Part shown: piece by piece, positions 2,196-35,240 of the stretch
Layout: every line of letters begins with the position of its first letter
How positions within the stretch are numbered: position 1 is the stretch's first letter
Source: Alphaproteobacteria bacterium
GTDB lineage: Bacteria; Pseudomonadota; Alphaproteobacteria; Caulobacterales; Maricaulaceae
Assembly (NCBI GenBank): GCA_018222865.1
Contig: JAAEZM010000007.1
Location: 109,557-173,556, forward strand
Direction: 5' to 3'
DNA: 64,000 nucleotides
Translations under genes and position numbers: made by a program
The notes under the pieces: generated by a model
What the model was told of the DNA's origin: nothing
Database searches by the model: none
What the model saw: the letters and a program-made list of their open reading frames with translations, nothing else

Positions 2196-2819
2196 CTAGC
2201 GGGCTGACGCGTCGCCGGTCCAGTTCGCCAGCTCGGTCGCGACTTGTGTCGAGGCCTCGTTGAAGGCCGTGACAATCGCGCCCGCACGGTTGGCGCCAGC
2301 GCGGACATTGGCAGAGAAGACCTGAGACGCCACCAGCTCCCGACCATCACTTTCGATCAGACGGGCAGCGATGCGGACACGCACAGTGGGCGCGACATCG
2401 CGTCCGCGATCATAATGGGCTTCAAACTCACGCAGATCGAGGCGCAGCTCGAACCGCGCGCGGATCGCATCGGCAGGATGCACAGGCTCAACGCCATCTT
2501 CACCGGCGTGGAATGTATCGATGATGAGGTTCTGGATGATCACCGGAGCCGGGGCAATCCAGCGCGCCGCCGACATATAGGCCAAGTGTCGATCAGCAAC
2601 CGCCACCGCGATCTCATCGCCAGACAGACCAGACGGCGCGACAGGGCGTTGGACCTGGACGATGACGGGCTCAAGGCCTGCCTCGCCCATACGCGGCTCA
2701 GGAGAAGACAGGCGATAAACCGCCGCTGGCTCGACCTCCGGCAATAAGGAGACACAGGCCGAAACGGATAAGGCACTCAGCGCGATCAGGCCGAGTTTGA
2801 CAGAACGCAGGCGGCTCAT
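2196..2819 (-). CDS. ABC transport auxiliary lipoprotein (PqiC/MlaD-partner type)
   Basis: 207 residues with a lipoprotein signal peptide: a positively charged N-terminus (SRLRSVK), a hydrophobic core, and a lipobox ending SVSAC with the lipidated cysteine at 22. The remainder looks like the ABC_trans_aux family, periplasmic or outer-membrane lipoproteins that partner MCE/Mla lipid transporters. The start ATG overlaps the stop of the upstream MCE gene (ATGA), so it is translationally coupled as the last gene of the four-gene lipid transport operon. It probably passes phospholipid between the MCE ring and the outer membrane; that role is inferred from context. Confidence 0.85.
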   Translation of the reverse strand: MSRLRSVKLGLIALSALSVSACVSLLPEVEPAAVYRLSSPEPRMGEAGLEPVIVQVQRPVAPSGLSGDEIAVAVADRHLAYMSAARWIAPAPVIIQNLIIDTFHAGEDGVEPVHPADAIRARFELRLDLREFEAHYDRGRDVAPTVRVRIAARLIESDGRELVASQVFSANVRAGANRAGAIVTAFNEASTQVATELANWTGDASAR

Positions 2820-3766
2820 TGCGGGACCTCCACGGTTTCACGCGGTGCGCCGGCAATAAAGGCGCTCGGATTGTTTTCGATTTGCGCAGCAACGCGCTCT
2901 AACGCCTCGGTTAGACGCTGAATATTCGATGCCGACTGGGTCAGGTCATTCAGACCTGTATCGGCGAATTCCTCGATCGAGGGACCGACGGCCAGCACCA
3001 GGCTATTGGTATCAACAGCCGCCTGATTCACAGCCATCGCAGCCAGCTGGGTCTCGTTCACCGCAGGGGTGAGATCATTGACCAGGAAGCTTTCCGTCGT
3101 CTGGCTAAAGCTTTGCAGGGCATCCGCTGCCGCGCCGATATCATTAGCCGCGCTCTCAATCTGGCGGACCGCGGAGCGCGCTTCAGCGACCAGCGTGTCT
3201 TCCTCGCGCACCCGCTCGGTAATGGCGCGGATATTCTCCAGCGTCTGGGAAACCTCTTCGAGATTCTCCTCGCTCATCAGTTCGGACAGCCGGATCAGTG
3301 CGATCTGCGCCGCATCGAGTACGTCCTCTGACCCTTCAACCAATCCCTCAAGCTGGGCCCGTCTTGCGAAGATCCGAGGGGGTGGGCGATTAGCCGGGCT
3401 GCGCAAGCGCTGTGCGTCCGGTGAACCACCGGAAAGCTGCACATAGGACAAGCCGGTCAGGCCCTGTGGTTCAAGCTGGGCAAAACTGTCTACGCGCACC
3501 GGCGTCTGCGCCAGAACCCGGATGCGAGCGATCACGCGGCTTTGCTCATCCAGGCCCAGCTCGGTAACCTCACCCACCTGGATGCCGTTGAAGCGAACCT
3601 CGCCGCTTTCGCGCAGACCGCGGACCGGACCGTCGAAGACAATGTCGTAGAAGGCGTATTCCTCGTCGAAAGAGACTTTCGCCATCCATAGCGAGAAAAA
3701 CACACCGGCGATGATAAGGCTGACCGAGAATAATCCGACCAGCACGTGATGCGCTTTGGTTTCCAT
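2816..3766 (-). CDS. mlaD: MlaD/MCE-family lipid-binding protein
   Basis: 316 residues. One N-terminal membrane anchor (about 7-29), then an MCE domain (about 40-120) with the family pattern G-x-V-R-x-x-G-x-x-V-x-F-x-G-I-x-V-G, followed by a long helical region (about 150-300) such as the central channel-lining helices of longer MCE proteins. MCE proteins form hexameric rings that carry phospholipids across the periplasm. AAGGAGAG lies before the ATG, inside the end of the ATPase gene, with only three bases between the genes. It is third in the operon after MlaE and MlaF. The length beyond short E. coli MlaD (about 183 residues) fits the alphaproteobacterial type. Confidence 0.9.
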   Translation of the reverse strand: METKAHHVLVGLFSVSLIIAGVFFSLWMAKVSFDEEYAFYDIVFDGPVRGLRESGEVRFNGIQVGEVTELGLDEQSRVIARIRVLAQTPVRVDSFAQLEPQGLTGLSYVQLSGGSPDAQRLRSPANRPPPRIFARRAQLEGLVEGSEDVLDAAQIALIRLSELMSEENLEEVSQTLENIRAITERVREEDTLVAEARSAVRQIESAANDIGAAADALQSFSQTTESFLVNDLTPAVNETQLAAMAVNQAAVDTNSLVLAVGPSIEEFADTGLNDLTQSASNIQRLTEALERVAAQIENNPSAFIAGAPRETVEVPQ

Positions 3767-3769
3767 CGT

Positions 3770-4546
3770 CTAGCTCTCCTTGCCCGACAAAGCGGCGCGT
3801 CCGCGCGGCCCGTGGAAGTATTCCTGGATCCAGGGATGCGGGTTACGCATCAAAGCCTCGATCGGCGCGACCGCCTCAACCCGCTTGTCGGCGAGCACAG
3901 CAACACGGTCGCAAATGGCGTGCAGGCTGTCGAGATCGTGCGTGACCATCAGCACGGTCAGGCCAAGAGCCTGCGACAATTCTGCAATCAAACTATCGAA
4001 TTTTGCCGCCCCGATCGGGTCAAGACCCGCGGTCGGCTCATCGAGGAAAAGAATTTCCGGATCCAGCGCCAGGGCGCGCGCCAGCGCCGCGCGTTTGCGC
4101 ATGCCGCCGGAAAGCTCGGACGGGAATTTATCCCCCGCTTCTGGCGGCAATCCCGCCAGACCGATCTTCATGCCGGCGATCTCTTCCATCAGCTGGTCGG
4201 ACATGTCGACATGCTCGCGAAGCGGCGCCATGACATTCTCCGCCACGGTCAATGAGGTGAACAGCGCCCCGTTCTGGAAAAGCACCCCCCAGCGCGAATT
4301 CACATAGCGGCGCTCTTCGCTCGACATATCGGAGAAATGCCGACCATTGAGCGTGATCTCTCCGGCATCGGGCTCTTTCAGGCCCAAAATCGTGTTCATC
4401 AGCACGGTTTTGCCCGTACCCGATCCACCGACCAGGCCCAGGATTTCGCCGCGGCGAATATCCAGATCCAGATCCTCATGGATCACATGCGTGCCAAACG
4501 CCGTCTTGAGACCGCGCACACGGATGAGAACGTCTTCATCCCTCAT
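3770..4546 (-). CDS. mlaF: Mla-type ABC transporter ATP-binding protein
   Basis: 258 residues from the ATG at 4546, whose bases overlap the TGA of the upstream permease (ATGA). The open frame extends further upstream, but only the overlap start gives the usual MlaF length. Walker A GGSGTGKT is at about 40-47, an ABC signature LSGGM lies mid-protein, and Walker B ends FLDEPTAGLDP. A D-loop and switch histidine (VTHD) follow. It powers the lipid transporter formed with the STAS-MlaE permease and MCE protein. The C-terminal tail of about 20 residues beyond the nucleotide-binding domain is typical of MlaF, where it contributes to dimer contacts. Confidence 0.93.
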   Translation of the reverse strand: MRDEDVLIRVRGLKTAFGTHVIHEDLDLDIRRGEILGLVGGSGTGKTVLMNTILGLKEPDAGEITLNGRHFSDMSSEERRYVNSRWGVLFQNGALFTSLTVAENVMAPLREHVDMSDQLMEEIAGMKIGLAGLPPEAGDKFPSELSGGMRKRAALARALALDPEILFLDEPTAGLDPIGAAKFDSLIAELSQALGLTVLMVTHDLDSLHAICDRVAVLADKRVEAVAPIEALMRNPHPWIQEYFHGPRGRAALSGKES

Positions 4547-5697
4547 ATGCCCAGCTCCAGATACATCATGGCGAAGAGCGCCTCGAGGACGATGACGGCG
4601 AAAATCGCCTGCACCACAGATGTCGTCACCCGTCGACCGAGCGATTCCACATCGCCGGTAACCTGCATCCCCTGACGGCAGCCAATAATCGCAACGACCA
4701 GGCCGAAGACCGGAGCTTTGGACATGCCGACAAGGAAGTGGTCCCAAGGCAATTCCTGATGGAAACGTGCGATGAAGAGCGTCGGGGAAATCCCCTGCGC
4801 GCTCCAGGCCACCAGCATGCCACCGAAAATACCGGAAATCATCGCGCCGAATGTGAGAAGCGGCGCCATCAGCGTACACGCAATAACACGGGGCAGAACC
4901 AGAACCTCGAAGGGATCGAGGCCGAGCGTGCGCATGGCATCGACCTCCTGCTGCATCTTCATCGCGCCGATTTGGGCGGTGAAGGCACTATCCGATCGGC
5001 CCGCCAGCATAATGGCGGTGATCAGAACCCCGAATTCACGCAGGACCGCAATCCCTACCAGCTCGACTGTGAATACGGAGAAGCCGAGTGTCTGGAGCAA
5101 GTTCGCGCCCATATAGGCCACAACTGCACCGATAAAGAAGGAGAGCGTCGCCACGATGGGCATGGCGTTTACGCCCACTTCTTCCATCGCATAGACGGTT
5201 GGCACCAAGCGCAAACGGCTTGGCCGGACCAGGGTTCGCAGCCCCACCTGGATCGTCTTGCCGAGGAAGCCGAACGTGTCGAGCACCTCGCCCATGATGA
5301 CTTCCATGCCCTGACCGATCTTGGCCAGCATGGCGAGCGGCCCCGCTGGTCCCGTATCTGCCAGGTCGCAAACCGTTGTTCGCGCCCGCACCTCAGCGAT
5401 CAAACGCTGGGCAACGGGATGCTCACCGATGAAATGGAAATCGCCATCTGGCGTCGGACAGGCTCGGGTCAGGCGTCCAAGAATGTAAGCACCAGACGTA
5501 TCGACACGCCCAAGCCGGGTGAAATCGATCGTGATGTCACAGGCATTCACCCGCGCCTCAATATCACGCAAAGTTCTATCGATCTGACCGATCGTTTCGA
5601 TCGTCCAGTCACCAAATGCCGAAACAATGGTCCTGCCGTGTTCCTCACGCAGGTCCACCCCGGCCGGATCTAGCTCAGGTGTGTGTTGACCCCTCAT
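4543..5697 (-). CDS. mlaE: MlaE-type permease with fused N-terminal STAS (MlaB-like) domain
   Basis: 384 residues. Residues about 10-110 form a STAS domain (VDTSGAYIL around the usual phosphorylatable-serine loop), equivalent to separate MlaB in enterics. Residues about 135-384 are the MlaE permease with five or six membrane segments and the conserved VLREFGVLITAIMLAGRSDS and LPRVIACTLMAPLLT stretches. It is the inner-membrane channel of the phospholipid transporter. First of the four coupled genes (MlaE-MlaF-MCE-lipoprotein), it starts ten bases after the stop of an MFS gene and may be cotranscribed with it. The STAS-MlaE fusion is known in Alphaproteobacteria. Confidence 0.92.
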   Translation of the reverse strand: MRGQHTPELDPAGVDLREEHGRTIVSAFGDWTIETIGQIDRTLRDIEARVNACDITIDFTRLGRVDTSGAYILGRLTRACPTPDGDFHFIGEHPVAQRLIAEVRARTTVCDLADTGPAGPLAMLAKIGQGMEVIMGEVLDTFGFLGKTIQVGLRTLVRPSRLRLVPTVYAMEEVGVNAMPIVATLSFFIGAVVAYMGANLLQTLGFSVFTVELVGIAVLREFGVLITAIMLAGRSDSAFTAQIGAMKMQQEVDAMRTLGLDPFEVLVLPRVIACTLMAPLLTFGAMISGIFGGMLVAWSAQGISPTLFIARFHQELPWDHFLVGMSKAPVFGLVVAIIGCRQGMQVTGDVESLGRRVTTSVVQAIFAVIVLEALFAMMYLELGI

Positions 5698-5707
5698 GGG
5701 CCTGACC

Positions 5708-6877
5708 CTAGTCGATTTTTTCGCGCTGCGGGAGTGCGGAAACGCGGTGAAGTGCGATTGCTGCGATCAGACCGATAATCGAGGGAAAAAGCATCAACGC
5801 AAAGCCGCCAACGCCTACCCAGGCATAGAAATATCCCGACACCGCCGCCGCCAGCGCCATCACCAATCCACCCGATAATGCCGAGTTTACCGCCTGGGCG
5901 GTCGCAGTGTGGCTCTCGGGAATACTGTCGATCGCGAATCGCAAGAAGCCGAGATAGGTGGCCGCAAAGGTCAGAGCGTGGAGCAATTGAAGGCCGAAGA
6001 GGACAGGCAGTGGAGGCCCCAGCGCCGTGAAGCCCCAGCGGATGATCGAGCCCGCAGCCCCCAGACCGAGAAGTTGGGCGGGCGTCAGGCGCGCCAAAAT
6101 GCCCTTTCCCGACCACCAGAGGAAGACGATCTCAATGACCACGCCTGTCGCCCAGAGCGCCCCGATGATCAATTGCGAATGCCCCATTTCCGCCCAGGCG
6201 ATCGCAGAAAAGAAATAATAGAAGCCATGAGCGCCCTGGACGCAAGCGGAGGCAAGCAGCGCCAATCCGAACGGTCCGCGCACCATGCGGCCAAACTGGA
6301 CCCAATCGATCCGGCGATCAGGGACTTCCCCCTCCGACTTGCCATTGGGCAAAGCAAACGCCGTGAGGACAATCAGCGCGGCACCGGTCGAGACAAAGAC
6401 CATCACGCTTTCCGATCCGGTTAGATCGAGCAAAGCGCCAGCGGCAAAATTGGCGAGAACAAAGGCGGCGGAGCCGAACGCTCTGACCGGGCCGAACGGA
6501 ATGGCTCCGGCGCGGGATTCGCGCATGGCAAATGCATCAGCCAACGGGATCTGGCCGAAGAAACCGGCTGAGGCGAGAAGGGCGAGCGCGAGGAGCGGCC
6601 AGGGCGAGGAAACCGGCAGGTGCATGATGAAGGCGACCAGGGATACCAGCGCCAGGGCAGCGATCGGACGTCGTTGGAATTTCGCCCGGTCAGACAGGCG
6701 CGCACCGAGCGGGGACACCAGCAAGCGACCAGCATAACCGGCCGCGCCGATCCAGCCGATCCACTCAGCAGAAATACCCCGTCCTTCCAGCCAGACAGGG
6801 AAATAGGGCAGGAATACCCCAAGGGTCAGGTAGAAGGCGCCGAAGTAGGCTGCGAAACGTATAACTTGAGAATTCAT
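5708..6877 (-). CDS. MFS transporter of the 3-phenylpropionate/HsrA-like (MFS_1_like) type
   Basis: 389 residues from the ATG at 6877, chosen because the first membrane helix (VIRFAAYFGAFYLTLGV) then begins a few residues in; an upstream in-frame ATG would add 25 basic residues. About 12 membrane segments are visible, with a loop between helices 2 and 3 reading GARLSDR. The opening pattern (YFPVWLEGRGISAEWIG) is that of transporters related to E. coli HcaT and LacY. The substrate cannot be read from sequence. It lies immediately upstream of the Mla-type operon on the same strand and divergent from the glycosyltransferase cluster. Confidence 0.85.
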   Translation of the reverse strand: MNSQVIRFAAYFGAFYLTLGVFLPYFPVWLEGRGISAEWIGWIGAAGYAGRLLVSPLGARLSDRAKFQRRPIAALALVSLVAFIMHLPVSSPWPLLALALLASAGFFGQIPLADAFAMRESRAGAIPFGPVRAFGSAAFVLANFAAGALLDLTGSESVMVFVSTGAALIVLTAFALPNGKSEGEVPDRRIDWVQFGRMVRGPFGLALLASACVQGAHGFYYFFSAIAWAEMGHSQLIIGALWATGVVIEIVFLWWSGKGILARLTPAQLLGLGAAGSIIRWGFTALGPPLPVLFGLQLLHALTFAATYLGFLRFAIDSIPESHTATAQAVNSALSGGLVMALAAAVSGYFYAWVGVGGFALMLFPSIIGLIAAIALHRVSALPQREKID

Positions 6878-6999
6878 GTGCACGCGGTCCCAGAACGCTG
6901 CCCATAACCTTTTGCGACGGATATGCATAGGTGTCTTTCGCTTGGCGAACATCGTTCACTTCGCTAGTTTCCCGCCAAGTCCTTTCAGAGACACGCCGG

Positions 7000-8298
7000 A
7001 TGACACTCAACACGACTGCAAATGCTTTAGCGGCCACGCCCGCCGCCACCGCCCCGATTCGCCCGCTGCGCGTTCTCGTCGCGGGATATCGCTCGCATCC
7101 CTATGTGGGCGGACAGGGTGTTTATATCCGTGAACTGACCACCGCCTTGAAGGCGCTCGGCCATGATGTGTCTGTTGCTTCCGGGCCGCCCTTCCCTCAG
7201 CTTGATCCAGGCATTCGGCTGATTGAGCTGCCGTCTCTCGATCTCTTCGCCGAGTCGAACGCCTTTCTCGCACTCCGCCCGCAGCATCTGATGAACTGGG
7301 CCGATCTGTCGGAGTGGATGGCGCACAATAGCGGTGCCTTCGGAGAGCTGAACGCCTTTGCCCTGCGCCTGGAGCGCTATCTGCTCGACCATGGCGATGA
7401 CTTTGACGTCATCCATGACAATCAGACGCTGATGCCGCCTTTTGCGCGAATCAATAAGCAAATCCCGGTGGTCGCGACCATCCACCACCCGATTGCTGTC
7501 GATCGGGAATTCGCGATCGCCGCCGGCCAGCGCTGGTGGGAAAAACTGCTCTCGCATCGGTGGTATAATTTCGTCGATGTTCAGGCCCGCATGACCCGGA
7601 AAATGCCGCGCTTGCTGGCCGTGTCTGAATCCGCCCGCCACAGCCATGTTGAGCATTACCGCGTCGATGCGGACAAGATCCGCGTCGCGTTTAACGGTAT
7701 CGACCACGCCGTCTTCCATCCGGATGCCGAGACGACCCGGGAGCCGGGCCTGATCGTCACCACGGCAAGCGCCGATGCCCCGATCAAGGGTCTCGACCTT
7801 TTGATCAAGGCGCTCGCGGAGATCGTGCCTGATCGGCCCAATCTTCGCCTTCACATTATCGGTCAATTGCGCGATGGCCCATCCAAACGGGCCTTGGAAG
7901 CGCTGGGCCTGCGCGATCGCGTGACCACCAGTTCCGGCTTGTCGCGCGCAGAGATCGCTCAGCTTTATCGCCGCGCCAATGTGGTTGCCTGTCCGGCGCG
8001 CTTTGAAGGCTTCGGCTTTCCAGCCGCTGAGGCCATGGCTTGCGGCGCGGCGGTCTGTACCAGCGACGGGGGGGCCTTACCGGAAGTGGTCGGCGATTGC
8101 GGGCTTGTTTCACCGGTCGAAGACACCCGCGCCCTGGCTGCAAATATCGCAAGCCTGATCGATGACCCGGAGAAGGCGGAAGCCTTGGGCGCCACCGCCC
8201 ATCAGCGCGCCCTCGCCGCTTTCAATTGGGAAGACCACGCCCTGGCCGCATCACAGCTCTACATGGATGCCCTGGCAGAGCGGGGAACAGTCTCATGA
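7000..8298 (+). CDS. GT4-family glycosyltransferase
   Basis: 432 residues from the ATG at 7000, which sits just before the first beta strand (LRVLVAGY). A GT-B fold retaining glycosyltransferase: N-terminal acceptor domain with the glycine-rich GGQGVYIRELTTAL, and a C-terminal nucleotide-sugar domain with EGFGFPAAEAMACG, the E-x7-E motif (about E336 and E344). No membrane segment, so probably cytoplasmic or peripheral. It transfers an unknown sugar to an unknown acceptor. Its stop overlaps the next gene's start (ATGATG), coupling it to a methyltransferase and then a toroid protein. I read these three as one operon that modifies a single product; that is inference. Confidence 0.9.
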   Translation: MTLNTTANALAATPAATAPIRPLRVLVAGYRSHPYVGGQGVYIRELTTALKALGHDVSVASGPPFPQLDPGIRLIELPSLDLFAESNAFLALRPQHLMNWADLSEWMAHNSGAFGELNAFALRLERYLLDHGDDFDVIHDNQTLMPPFARINKQIPVVATIHHPIAVDREFAIAAGQRWWEKLLSHRWYNFVDVQARMTRKMPRLLAVSESARHSHVEHYRVDADKIRVAFNGIDHAVFHPDAETTREPGLIVTTASADAPIKGLDLLIKALAEIVPDRPNLRLHIIGQLRDGPSKRALEALGLRDRVTTSSGLSRAEIAQLYRRANVVACPARFEGFGFPAAEAMACGAAVCTSDGGALPEVVGDCGLVSPVEDTRALAANIASLIDDPEKAEALGATAHQRALAAFNWEDHALAASQLYMDALAERGTVS

Positions 8299-9017
8299 TG
8301 GTCACCATCCGTATGGAGGACCTGGCCCTGGAAGAGGGAATGCGGGTCCTTGATCTGGGCTGCGGCCAAGGCCGTCACCTGCACGCTCTTTATTGGGATG
8401 AAACGCCGGTCGAGGTCGTCGGGCTGGATTTGTCGCTGGAGGATGTGAAGGTCGCCTGGGATGGCTTCTTTGAACTCCCCCCGCCCGATCCGTATTCGGA
8501 GCGGCGATCCGCCGTTGTCACGGCTGGCGATGCCCAGCGCCTCCCCTTCCCCGATAATAGTTTTGATCGCATCATCTGTTCTGAAGTCCTCGAGCATGTG
8601 CCTGATCCAGATCAGGTTCTTTCAGAGATTTCTCGCATCCTGAAACCCGGCGGATTATTCGCCGCTTCAGTGCCGCGTTACTGGCCCGAGGCGATATGCT
8701 GGCGCCTGTCCGAGGGCTATCAGAACACGCCGGGCGGACATGTGCGAATCTTCCGCTCCGAAGGCCTGAAATCCGCCGTGGAGGCTCAAGGCTTCAAACG
8801 CTTTGGCCGACATTGGGCGCATGCGCTTCACAGCCCCTATTGGTGGCTGCAATGCGCGCTCTGGGACAAGCGCGAAAGCAGCGGCCTGGTCCGGACCTAT
8901 CGCAAGTTCCTGGAATGGGATCTGCTCCAGCGCCCCTGGCTCACGCGCACGCTTGAAGCGCTTCTAAACCCGCTGATGGGCAAGTCTGTGGTCATGTATT
9001 TCAGGAAAGCCTCATGA
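8295..9017 (+). CDS. Class I SAM-dependent methyltransferase
   Basis: 240 residues starting at the ATG that overlaps the glycosyltransferase stop. Motif I, VLDLGCGQGRHL, is at 18-29; an acidic ribose-binding turn (VVGLDLS) and post-motif regions follow, including SEVLEHVPDPDQVLSEISRI and LKPGGLFAASVPRYWPE, the Methyltransf_11/UbiE-like layout. A basic, Trp-rich C-terminal extension (residues 170-240, with PYWWLQCALW) may bind lipid or a membrane surface; that is inference. The substrate is unknown. The stop overlaps the downstream toroid gene by ATGA, so glycosyltransferase, methyltransferase and toroid protein are translationally coupled. Confidence 0.9.
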   Translation: MMVTIRMEDLALEEGMRVLDLGCGQGRHLHALYWDETPVEVVGLDLSLEDVKVAWDGFFELPPPDPYSERRSAVVTAGDAQRLPFPDNSFDRIICSEVLEHVPDPDQVLSEISRILKPGGLFAASVPRYWPEAICWRLSEGYQNTPGGHVRIFRSEGLKSAVEAQGFKRFGRHWAHALHSPYWWLQCALWDKRESSGLVRTYRKFLEWDLLQRPWLTRTLEALLNPLMGKSVVMYFRKAS

Positions 9018-10126
9018 GCGAAATCGTCGATATACGGGGCTGCGCAGACCATATCGAAGCCCTGCAGGACGCCTCCGGCGCGATCAGCTGGATTGAGGCC
9101 GGGATCTGGGATGCCTGGAATCACGGCGAAAGCGCCATGGCCTTGGCCATTGCCGGACGCGAAACACCCGCCTTCAAAGCCCTTGATTGTCTGATGGACC
9201 GCCAGGAAAGCGATGGCGGCTTTACCGGAGATCTCGGCGCATCAGTCCCGCTCGATGAAAGCAATCGTCATCTCGTTCCGGGCGAGCCGGAAACCGCGCG
9301 CGATACCAATTTCACGGGCTACGCCGCTGTCACGGCATTGCGCAGCCTTCTGGCTTTGGGCGCTTTGGAACGCCTGCCGCGCTATTGGCCAATGATCCAG
9401 GCCGCCGCAGACTTTATCCTCGATCATCAAAGCCGACATGGCGATATCGTCTGGCGGGCCAGCGGGGATGAGAGCCTGGACGATATCGACAGCCTGCGCG
9501 CCGGCAATGCCAGCCTCTATAAATCACTGGAATGCGTGATCCTGGCGGGCCGCTGTGTGGGCGCGGATGTCACCATTTATGAGCGCGCGCGCTGCGCCAT
9601 CGGCGCGACACTCCGCGAGAATGACGCGCGCTTCGACCGGTTCGGGACCGACCGTCGACGCTATGCCATGGACTGGTATTACCCTGTGCTCGCAGGCGTC
9701 TTGCCGCTGGAAAGCGCACGCGCGCGACTTTATGCGCGCTGGCGGGAATTCGTCGTCGCTGGGCTGGGGTGCCGCTGCGTCACAGACGAGCCATGGGTGA
9801 CCGCCGCGGAAACCGCGGAATTGGCGCTCGCCTGCATCAGCGTCGCGCAAAAGGCCCAGGCCCGGACACTCCTCACCGATCTCGCGCCGCTGGTCGCGGA
9901 TGCGGGCGGTTACTGGATGGGCTGGCAGTTCAATGAGAATGTGATCTGGCCTTATGAACGCCCGTCCTGGACCGCTGGCGCCCTGGTGCTTGCCGCTGAC
10001 GCGCTGGACGAGCTGACCCCTGGCTCGACCCTGATGGTTCGCAATCATGTGCCGGAGCTGGGCCCTGGCCTCGGCTCTGGCGTTACGGCAAGCGGCGAAG
10101 CACTTCCAGCGTTCCTACGCGCTTGA
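9014..10126 (+). CDS. Alpha/alpha-toroid protein of the prenyltransferase/terpene-cyclase fold
   Basis: 370 residues, start overlapping the methyltransferase stop (ATGA). Internal QW-like repeats suggest an alpha6-alpha6 barrel: RQESDGGFTG (63-72), DHQSRHGDIVW (137-147), and a C-terminal GGYWMGWQF followed by WPYERPSWTAGA. Such repeats occur in squalene-hopene cyclases, protein prenyltransferase beta subunits and related toroids. I see no DxDD cyclase acid motif and no clear zinc triad, so neither cyclisation nor prenyl transfer can be claimed. The last 44 bases overlap the convergent methyltransferase gene. It probably binds or modifies the lipid or polyprenyl part of whatever the coupled glycosyltransferase and methyltransferase make. 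Confidence 0.75.
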   Translation: MSEIVDIRGCADHIEALQDASGAISWIEAGIWDAWNHGESAMALAIAGRETPAFKALDCLMDRQESDGGFTGDLGASVPLDESNRHLVPGEPETARDTNFTGYAAVTALRSLLALGALERLPRYWPMIQAAADFILDHQSRHGDIVWRASGDESLDDIDSLRAGNASLYKSLECVILAGRCVGADVTIYERARCAIGATLRENDARFDRFGTDRRRYAMDWYYPVLAGVLPLESARARLYARWREFVVAGLGCRCVTDEPWVTAAETAELALACISVAQKAQARTLLTDLAPLVADAGGYWMGWQFNENVIWPYERPSWTAGALVLAADALDELTPGSTLMVRNHVPELGPGLGSGVTASGEALPAFLRA

Positions 10127-10688
10127 CGCTTTCAAACAGGCCAGAGCCGACCGCCAGCTTCCAGATCTCATGGGGCGGACGACCGCCATCTTCCGGATTC
10201 GGGAAGACATCATGGATGGCCAGAATTCCGCCATGCACAACGCGCCCGGCCCAGCCGCGATAATCATCCAGCGCCGCTTGCATGGAATGACCACCATCAA
10301 TGAACACCATGCCCAAGGGCGTGGTCCAATTGGCTGCAATAGTGGCTGATTTCCCGATCACCGGAATAACGCAGTCTTCCAGTTCGGCCCGAAACAGCGT
10401 GCGACGCAACTCGCCCAAGGTTTCAACAGCGCCGAGCTCCGCATCAAAAAGATCCGGATCGTGATACTCCTCACCGGGTTGATGCTCCTCTGAACCGCGA
10501 TGATGATCGAGGGTATAGAGCACCGTTCCGGCCTTGCGCGCTGCGGGTCCGAGATAGAGCGCCGACTTGCCGCAATAGGTGCCGATCTCAAGAACCGGCC
10601 CCAGCGCCCCCGCCGTTTCAGCGAGCTGTGCCAAAGCCTCGCCTTCCTCGACAGCGAGGAAGCCTTTCACATCATCAGGATGGATCAT
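10083..10688 (-). CDS. Class I SAM methyltransferase (Methyltransf_24/CmcI-like)
   Basis: 201 residues. SAM-binding motif VLEIGTYCGKSALYLG at 32-47, an acidic residue after strand 2 (TLDHHRGSEEH) and GMVFIDGGHS (about 125-134), typical of the Methyltransf_24 group that includes O-methyltransferases and cephamycin CmcI-like proteins. The HH and D residues could hold a metal, as in that group. The start codon overlaps the stop of an upstream lipoprotein gene (TAATG), so the two are coupled; the 3' end overlaps the toroid gene by 44 bases on the opposite strand. Function is unknown. Whether it acts with the facing glycosyltransferase set is inference from proximity. Confidence 0.85.
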   Translation of the reverse strand: MIHPDDVKGFLAVEEGEALAQLAETAGALGPVLEIGTYCGKSALYLGPAARKAGTVLYTLDHHRGSEEHQPGEEYHDPDLFDAELGAVETLGELRRTLFRAELEDCVIPVIGKSATIAANWTTPLGMVFIDGGHSMQAALDDYRGWAGRVVHGGILAIHDVFPNPEDGGRPPHEIWKLAVGSGLFESVKRVGTLEVLRRLP

Positions 10689-11356
10689 TAGCCTGCCGCT
10701 TCTGCAGGAAGTGCGCGGCGGATCTCCGCCAGCTCGTCTGCGCGATCACGCAAGTATTCAGACTGACGCGCCAGTTCGCTGCGATGTGCCTGCAGCCGGT
10801 CGAGACCATCCTCATCAAGCTGAACCGAGACGGTCGCGATGGCGAGGTCGAAGGTCACCAGGGCCTCACGAGACTGCGCCAAGGCACGCTCAACCAGTTC
10901 CAGGTCCCGGGTCAGAGAGGTCCGGCTGACATCTTCATCACGCGATACAAGGCGGGCCGCGGCCAGATCAACATCGCGGACCAGATCCTGCGCCTCATCG
11001 AGATCCGTCATCAGACGTGCAACCGCAACAGCGCTGTCCATGGTGGAAAAATTGGTGTGTGCGAGATAGGGCGGTGCGCCCGGCGCTTCGGCCTCATCAG
11101 CCTGATCACGCTGACCGGTCAGCCGCGCCATCCAATTGCGGGTGGTCTGCTGCATGGAATTGGCGGCACGGATCCAGCCGCGCTCCTCGAAAATGGACTG
11201 CAACCGATTGGAGGCACCCCGGAGCGAAAGCTGTGTTTGTGTCTGCGCCAAGGAAACCGGGAGTGCGCTGCCGGCAATCGAGATCGGCGCACTCGCACAG
11301 CCCGTTGCCAAAACGCAGCTGCACGCTATGACCGAAACAATACGCAGATTGCCCAT
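10688..11356 (-). CDS. Putative helical lipoprotein, unknown function
   Basis: 222 residues. Signal peptide with a lipobox ending VLATGC, cysteine at 20, so probably membrane-anchored in the periplasm. The mature part is mostly helical; residues about 90-220 are rich in Leu, Ala, Glu, Asp and Arg and could form a coiled coil. I do not recognise the family. The stop shares a base with the start of the Methyltransf_24 gene (TAATG), which makes a coupled lipoprotein/methyltransferase pair, an odd pairing of an exported and a cytoplasmic protein. It is transcribed divergently from proline iminopeptidase. Confidence 0.7.
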   Translation of the reverse strand: MGNLRIVSVIACSCVLATGCASAPISIAGSALPVSLAQTQTQLSLRGASNRLQSIFEERGWIRAANSMQQTTRNWMARLTGQRDQADEAEAPGAPPYLAHTNFSTMDSAVAVARLMTDLDEAQDLVRDVDLAAARLVSRDEDVSRTSLTRDLELVERALAQSREALVTFDLAIATVSVQLDEDGLDRLQAHRSELARQSEYLRDRADELAEIRRALPAEAAG

Positions 11357-34822: not shown

Positions 34823-34860
34823 ATCCACCTGACGGTCTTTCGCCGAGGCCCCCGATACCC

Positions 34861-34866
34861 TATATT
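34861..34866 (+). promoter_or_regulatory. Probable -10 element of the tmRNA gene
   Basis: TATATT at 34861-34866, about seven bases before the inferred 5' end of the tmRNA precursor. No convincing -35 element is visible 17 bases upstream, so the assignment is tentative. Confidence 0.4.
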
Positions 34867-34871
34867 GAGGG

Positions 34872-35240
34872 TGCCGGTTCGCTGGCTATGGCGATAAACG
34901 CACACGTAATAACCGGACTGGACCCGGGGGCAGTACCCGGCGGCTCCACCAAATCCTCCCTGTGAAAGCAGGGAACAGACCCGAACCGGTGTTGACTGGC
35001 GAGGGTCATTATGGGGGCCGAAACAGGATCGACAGACGGGTAAAGGTGATCGCTTTCGCTCGGGTGAGGCCCGTTACAGGCTCGATTTGAATAGTTGCTA
35101 ATGACAACTACGCTGAAGAGGTCGCTCTCGCTGCATAAGCAGTGCGGGTAATCTCGCTTAAAACTCCTATTCCCTTTAGCCGGAATAGGCGGGGCTCGGA
35201 GGCGCCTGGCAACAGAAGCCTCCACTTTCACTCCAGACCT
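34872..35240 (+). ncRNA. ssrA: Two-piece (circularly permuted) tmRNA
   Basis: Acceptor piece first, ending GGCTCCACCA at 34951, with the T-arm-like GGACCCGGGGGCAGTACCCGG before it. After an intervening segment of about 62 bases, the coding piece begins at 35014 with GGGGCCGAAACAGGATCGAC. The two ends pair as a seven-base-pair acceptor stem (GGGGCCG with CGGCUCC, one G-U), and ATCGC at 35049-35053 can pair with GCGAT at 34891-34895. The tag frame runs 35097-35138 and encodes ANDNYAEEVALAA plus stop; with the charged alanine the tag is close to the Caulobacter tag (AANDNFAEEFAVAA, from memory). It rescues stalled ribosomes. The outer ends are approximate. Protein frames across it are spurious. 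Confidence 0.93.
35097..35138 (+). other. tmRNA proteolysis-tag reading frame
   Basis: Thirteen codons and TAA, encoding ANDNYAEEVALAA. The C-terminal LAA or VAA-type ending is what ClpX recognises, and the N-terminal AANDNY part is what an alpha-type SspB adaptor would bind. The resume codon is GCT. Confidence 0.9.

Follow-up and report, generated by a model that had tools for sequence, protein, structure and literature searches.

Genes and couplings of the cluster

A cluster of closely coupled genes at positions 7000–11356 of a 64,000-nucleotide stretch of genomic DNA (the window) from a bacterium of the genus Maricaulis raises the question of which product it makes, and what part is played in it by a toroid protein for which Pfam and NCBIfam gave no match at E up to 1. 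The initial annotation had recognised coupled genes of a family 4 glycosyltransferase (GT4), a methyltransferase and the toroid protein, facing a Methyltransf_24 gene which overlaps the toroid gene by 44 bases and is itself joined by TAATG to a lipoprotein gene; these coordinates and couplings hold. The four genes listed below very probably represent a complete cassette for 3-O-methylmannose polysaccharide (MMP) in a Gram-negative bacterium, as judged from homology, synteny, conservation of most catalytic residues, co-occurrence of the genes, and presence of a GDP-mannose enzyme in the genome. MMP has been described from mycobacteria and some other actinobacteria, where it is explained mostly via the type I fatty acid synthase (FAS-I) and acyl-CoA effects.

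7000–8298, plus strand: manT, GT4 glycosyltransferase, homologue of ManT (phmmer match to 7QSG, kept residues)
8298–9017, plus strand: pmeT3, S-adenosylmethionine (SAM)-dependent methyltransferase, homologue of the putative MMP 3-O-methyltransferase (cassette position, identity to the mycobacterial counterpart)
9014–10126, plus strand: mmpH, the "toroid", homologue of the (alpha/alpha)6-barrel MMP endomannosidase (phmmer and fold match to 7QSJ)
10083–10688, minus strand: meT1, Methyltransf_24 protein, homologue of the MMP 1-O-methyltransferase (phmmer match to 6G7D)

As read from the sequence, manT, pmeT3 and mmpH are coupled end to end, and meT1 converges on them. The manT gene extends from ATG 7000 (the list of open reading frames (ORFs) has GTG 6931 as start) to the stop codon at 8296–8298. 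Its TGA is spanned by an ATGATG which offers ATG 8295 or ATG 8298 as the start of pmeT3, the latter agreeing best with the mycobacterial start in locus L093. The stop codon of pmeT3 (9015–9017) and the start of mmpH share an ATGA overlap. Pfam assigned Glycos_transf_1/Glyco_transf_4 to manT, Methyltransf_11/23 to pmeT3, and Methyltransf_24 to meT1.

The toroid protein is a homologue of the endomannosidase MmpH

The role of the toroid, which the initial annotation had left open, follows from both sequence and fold. A phmmer search of PDB sequences up to E 10 yielded a single match, 7QSJ (E 3.8e-57, residues 8–341), and a predicted model with a mean pLDDT of 93.3 retrieved the same entry as the top Foldseek match (TM-scores 0.84/0.90, root-mean-square deviation 2.2 Å, E 1.8e-26), the next entry following at E 1.9e-7. 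7QSJ is the MmpH, and 7QSG the ManT, of Mycolicibacterium hassiacum (PMC9883506, drawn upon here and below from an excerpt). The toroid thus falls within a characterised family, the MMP endomannosidases (PMC9883506), and the cluster no longer qualifies as an undescribed pathway.

A toroid fold could also have belonged to a terpene cyclase or prenyltransferase of an undescribed envelope lipid pathway, and drimenyl diphosphate synthase does occur among the weak fold matches of the model (E 3.2e-6). We rejected this candidate on the strength of the sequence and fold match to 7QSJ; the glycosidase residues are kept as well, so that hardly any probability attaches to such a pathway. The absence of a visible DxDD motif was confirmed, D.DD being found nowhere in the toroid protein of the window, and is to be expected because the toroid is a glycoside hydrolase of the (alpha/alpha)6 type. 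The (alpha/alpha)6 glycosidases of families GH15 and GH125 have the fold and the position of the catalytic base in common with MmpH, but the GH125 relatives named in the excerpt are exo-acting, in contrast to the endo-acting MmpH (PMC9883506); neither family matched the window toroid by sequence (phmmer against PDB, E up to 10).

MmpH residues are numbered here as in PMC9883506 (the PDB chain is one ahead) and were placed by motif. The window protein keeps Asp47, Trp49, Asn101, Phe102, Met215, Tyr219, Glu262, Glu265 and Trp315; its equivalents of the putative acid Asp47, the catalytic base Glu262, and Glu265 are D33, E266 and E269, respectively. Both glutamates are invariant in all 110 rows used of the 111 aligned, and Asp47 is found in 109 of the 110, the remaining row having Glu. 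At Thr163, the window and 43 of 65 alphaproteobacterial rows have Ala instead. Where a single stop was counted in an mmpH match (L006, G209 and several SAR86 genomes), the open frame is full-length, and the stop is apparently the one that terminates the gene.

ManT, MeT1 and pMeT3

ManT of the window matched 7QSG with a phmmer E value of 1.7e-88, the next PDB match reaching 6.3e-24. Its residues G37, K263 and E344 are the equivalents of Gly15, Lys240 and Glu321, which are thus kept. Lys240 and Glu321 are present in all 73 rows used for the count (of 106); the row of the window does not extend far enough for it, and its residues were taken from a separate alignment.

MeT1 matched 6G7D, together with 6G80 and 6H40, at E 1e-60 (residues 5–199; next match E 0.05). 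The title of 6G7D reads only "methyltransferase domain protein"; we take the entry to be MeT1. MeT1 of the window shares 51–55% identity with the protein that occupies the meT1 position in mycobacterial loci, the highest value among the four proteins, which overall share 36–55% identity with the mycobacterial loci listed. In one genome (G078, C70:197990–198579), the meT1 match is divided between two frames, perhaps due to a frame break or a sequence error.

pMeT3 shares 39–42% identity with the protein at the same position in mycobacterial loci and has no close solved relative, its best PDB sequence match having an E value of 2.2e-14. The folds nearest to its predicted model (mean pLDDT 94.3) include SpnF, AtmM and RebM; the PDB entry of AtmM is titled D-glucose O-methyltransferase, and RebM acts on a sugar.

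Conservation of the gene order

The window shares its four genes and their order with the MMP cluster MHAS_04402–04405 of M. hassiacum (manT-pmeT3-mmpH-meT1), and the main catalytic residues of MmpH and ManT as well; in Mycolicibacterium agri (L093), the genes also have the same orientation, with meT1 convergent. Unlike the mycobacterial cluster, the window has overlapping gene ends, Asn in place of MmpH Asp50 and Arg in place of ManT Asp293, and belongs to a proteobacterial host in which no FAS-I marker was detected. The four Streptomyces loci in our set, which do not include S. griseus, contain the same three-gene unit, but differ from the window in having meT1 2.6–5.1 kb away. S. griseus makes an acetylated form of MMP (AMMP; PMC9883506), whereas the window cassette contains no acetyltransferase.

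For the comparison of gene order, 111 mmpH loci were available, including three pairs with identical mmpH and the window itself. A scan of named genomes contributed the best 80 of 576 confirmed stretches, a sample which leans towards near relatives; they stem from Alphaproteobacteria, Gammaproteobacteria (mostly SAR86), delta-type proteobacteria (including Syntrophales), and Actinomycetota. Class labels were set from the record titles; L090, for example, is titled as a delta-type proteobacterium, but its taxonomy is Myxococcota. The co-occurrence of the three coupled genes in other genomes, proposed as a check of the initial annotation, was borne out, with manT and pmeT3 directly upstream of mmpH in 106 of the 111 loci. 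All four genes, in the same order and with meT1 convergent, are present in 96 loci from all four large taxa, with meT1 more than 700 bp away in 13 of these. In a single locus, L098, meT1 lies on the same strand. The mmpH/meT1 overlap of 44 or 41 bp is common to 21 loci of the genus Maricaulis (L001–L018, L030, L032, L033). Because the three-gene unit with convergent meT1 recurs across four large taxa, and because the overlap recurs within the genus, the arrangement is not a product of chance.

An enzyme for the supply of GDP-mannose is also encoded. GMP_PMI, which covers mannose-1-phosphate guanylyltransferase, was matched in all 19 genomes of the genus, 17 of them above the cut-off, and in the genome of the window the match above the cut-off is at C23:171341–172411 (profile positions 1–354 of 467). 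The enzyme is common, 12 of 14 control genomes having a match too.

Proposed pathway and evidence to the contrary

The activities of ManT, MmpH and MeT1 have been established for M. hassiacum (PMC9883506). If the Maricaulis enzymes keep these activities, and if pMeT3 is the 3-O-methyltransferase, ManT would add alpha-(1→4)-linked mannose from GDP-mannose onto short mannoside primers, pMeT3 would methylate O-3 of the mannoses so added, and MeT1 would cap the reducing end at O-1. MmpH would cut finished chains internally, releasing short pieces for re-extension by ManT, as in the recycling cycle described in PMC9883506. The predicted product is a soluble cytoplasmic 3-O-methylmannan of about a dozen units, able to hold long acyl chains, and its role would be that of the mycobacterial polymer, comprising acyl binding and growth in the cold; at 15 degrees, the growth of an mmpH mutant devoid of MMP was slowed (PMC9883506).

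The initial annotation had envisaged one glycosylated, methylated, lipid-linked product handled at the envelope. That the genes act together on a glycosylated and methylated product agrees with the cassette; the lipid link and the envelope do not, as MMP is cytoplasmic in mycobacteria (PMC2674218, likewise from an excerpt), no signal peptide is visible by eye on ManT, pMeT3, MmpH or MeT1, and the lipoprotein occurs in some Maricaulaceae only.

Several points weigh against the assignment as an MMP cassette. We know of no biochemistry for any proteobacterial member of the cassette, and pMeT3 is a putative 3-O-methyltransferase in mycobacteria, too. No meT1 is shown in 12 of the 111 loci; several of these stop at or shortly past mmpH, but two Nocardia loci (7.9 kb) and L081 (6.4 kb) are without meT1 despite having room for it. 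In some gammaproteobacterial loci, lipid A genes lie 1.6–5.8 kb downstream of mmpH, as detailed below. In ManT, Asp293, the proposed contact to the guanine base (PMC9883506), is replaced by R316 in the window and is variable outside Actinomycetota; the donor of ManT is therefore not proven to be GDP-mannose. In MmpH, Asp50 is replaced by N36 in the window, and Asn occupies this position in 64 of 65 alphaproteobacterial rows, while the alanine variant of M. hassiacum MmpH at Asp50 lost most of its activity (PMC9883506). Asp is present in all 12 gamma and all 9 delta rows, and Asn in 3 of the 24 actinobacterial ones. The excerpt of PMC9883506 does not decide between Asp47 and Asp50 as the catalytic acid; given the natural Asn at position 50, we favour Asp47, and from the alignment Asp50 does not look like a defining feature of MmpH proteins of MMP cassettes.

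These replacements in the Alphaproteobacteria might also indicate that donor or acceptor sites have shifted in Proteobacteria, and that the cassette makes a related polymer differing in sugar, linkage or decoration. Such a possibility is suggested as well by the acetylated form of S. griseus (PMC9883506), and by genes following mmpH in the delta-type loci, which code for a hexapeptide acyltransferase-like protein (6 of 9 loci) and a B12-binding radical SAM protein (6 of 9). On the other hand, neither the set of four genes nor the main catalytic residues have changed, MeT1 is the protein closest to its mycobacterial counterpart, and the genome encodes a GDP-mannose enzyme. We regard a different polymer as improbable.

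A methylmannan exposed on the cell surface, for instance as O-antigen, appears more improbable still. Oligotropha carboxidovorans is an alphaproteobacterium. Its O-chain is built from 3-O-methylmannose in alpha-(1→2) linkage (according to a citation in PMC9883506), genes of a lipoprotein and a transporter of the major facilitator superfamily (MFS) flank the cassette in Maricaulaceae, and genes of a Kdo transferase (7 loci) and a lipid A acyltransferase (6 loci), exemplified by L070:12171–14406, are found in the gamma loci at the distance given above. However, the lipid A genes serve the synthesis of the inner portion of lipopolysaccharide, and in a comparison of 81 loci they were noted as recurring families in gamma loci only. 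Among 35 families occurring in at least four of the 81 loci, part of which were submitted to Pfam, no O-antigen exporter or ligase was recognised. The lack of visible signal peptides points in the same direction, and a reducing end capped by MeT1 would be unavailable for attachment to a lipid.

Distribution and history of the cassette

Overall, the MMP cassette is distributed patchily; in certain groups it is almost fixed. The nearest named loci belong to Maricaulis (L032 and L033, among the best 80), and their MmpH is identical to that of genomes of the same genus. An mmpH match was found in 31 of 61 genomes of relatives, own genome included. It occurs in each of the 18 other genomes of the genus, in one of them as a partial match at a contig end; in 10 of the 18 others of the family, with one match being short and weak; and in 2 of the 24 others of the order. 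In the class, strong matches of mmpH (E < 1e-100) and of meT1 (E < 1e-60) occurred in the same 25 of 289 genomes, after weak matches had been discounted (8 of 33 for mmpH, 40 of 65 for meT1), and by their coordinates the two genes are adjacent and convergent in all 25. In the phylum at large, strong mmpH matches were confined to 5 of 398 genomes, 15 of 20 matches being discounted as weak. The family around the SAR86 genome L079, in turn, has mmpH in 36 of 40 genomes.

A tree was calculated from joined pMeT3, MmpH and MeT1 sequences of 80 of the 111 loci, in which all three are long enough, minus 15 rows of the same genus; it is unrooted, was obtained by a quick method, and includes two long rows and 22 rows of odd letter composition. 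On it, the alpha, actino and delta rows are each set apart by a well supported branch and the gamma rows by a weak one (SH-aLRT 48), and the grouping by taxon takes three changes, which is the minimum. A recent transfer from Actinobacteria to Maricaulis is not supported by this tree. The pattern agrees with that of an old cassette passed down within each class, older transfers between classes being possible.

No report of MMP genes outside Actinobacteria was found in the titles and abstract beginnings among the matches listed, most subscription journals lying outside this search. The pathway itself is known; what is new is its occurrence outside Actinobacteria.

Type I fatty acid synthase and the possible role of MMP

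The FAS-I marker PF08354 was found in none of the 61 relatives of the window, 31 of which have an mmpH match, and in none of another 34 proteobacteria that carry the cassette (24 alpha, 6 gamma and 4 delta, with incomplete genomes among them). It was detected in 2 of 5 cassette-bearing actinobacteria and, among 14 controls, in Corynebacterium glutamicum alone. Maricaulis most likely makes its fatty acids by separate type II enzymes. Because no FAS-I marker was found, control of FAS-I cannot be the role of MMP in Maricaulis. A polyunsaturated fatty acid (PUFA) synthase as substitute target was not found above the cut-off in any of 13 genomes. Matches below the threshold occurred in all 13, mostly in frames of 300–430 amino acids, as expected of separate synthases; in G045, the cassette of which is identical to that of a Henriciella record, the PUFA synthase match reached 844 bits versus a cut-off of 1010.

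The finding of the cassette in a Gram-negative marine bacterium, and in relatives of it, suggests that MMP is more widespread than thought. If SAR86 bacteria, with genomes of about 1 Mb, and Maricaulis indeed make MMP by means of these four genes but lack FAS-I, the explanation by FAS-I is incomplete, and a harmless marine bacterium would become a model for MMP function. There is, in our estimation, an even chance that MMP is a bacterial polymer of old origin shared across phyla, found almost universally in a SAR86 family and commonly in Maricaulaceae, and that its original role is unrelated to FAS-I; it might, for example, serve bacteria with type II fatty acid synthesis as a general carrier of acyl chains or in adaptation to cold. 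A toroid protein lacking any Pfam or NCBIfam match in any case gains the name of a pathway.

Flanking genes

Two genes adjoin the cassette in the window:

10688–11356, minus strand: lipoprotein gene (TAATG coupling to meT1; lipobox-like LATGC near the N-terminus, by eye)
5708–6952, minus strand: MFS transporter gene, divergent from manT (Pfam MFS_1_like)

For the lipoprotein, all Pfam and NCBIfam matches at E up to 1 were below the cut-off, and with a limit of E 0.001 no Pfam family was found; homologues were seen in Maricaulaceae loci only, and in some of those only. MFS matches of at least 41% identity adjoining manT are likewise restricted to loci of the Maricaulaceae clade, while weaker ones (31–33%) lie more distant from the cassette in L060 and L062. 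Both proteins were set aside as parts of the pathway, since their close homologues are confined to this clade; the two genes are neighbours and not core parts of the cassette. No further gene family with a fixed place across taxa, which might represent a fifth pathway gene, was found in 81 loci, ORF picking being poor in the high-GC Streptomyces flanks. A family of AMP-binding, acyl-CoA synthetase-like proteins occurred in six loci of three taxa, in scattered places.

Other recurrent neighbours are specific to single groups. In seven gamma loci, a phosphomannomutase/phosphoglucomutase gene is found upstream of mmpH, at a distance of 4.3 kb or, in one case, 7.7 kb, with L074:3679–5052 as a SAR86-type example; its product could help feed GDP-mannose. 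The two genes following mmpH in delta loci precede meT1 where meT1 is seen. L086 (9089–11458), L085, L091 and L105 contain both, L081 and L084 only the acyltransferase-like gene, and L078 and L090 only that of the radical SAM protein; perhaps the delta-type loci make a further modified MMP. One alpha/beta hydrolase family is encoded near the cassette in 17 alpha loci (e.g., L054:4896–5885), downstream in eight of them, in the place of the prolyl aminopeptidase gene of the window, and upstream of manT in nine.

Beyond the MFS gene, positions 2816–5697 of the window contain Mla-type transport genes, identified by eye as MlaD-, ATPase- and MlaE-like; an MlaE-like match near the cassette was found in 6 of 81 loci, all from the Maricaulaceae clade. 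Farther away, positions 34834–35226 harbor an alphaproteobacterial (permuted) transfer-messenger RNA gene, which is ordinary for the class.

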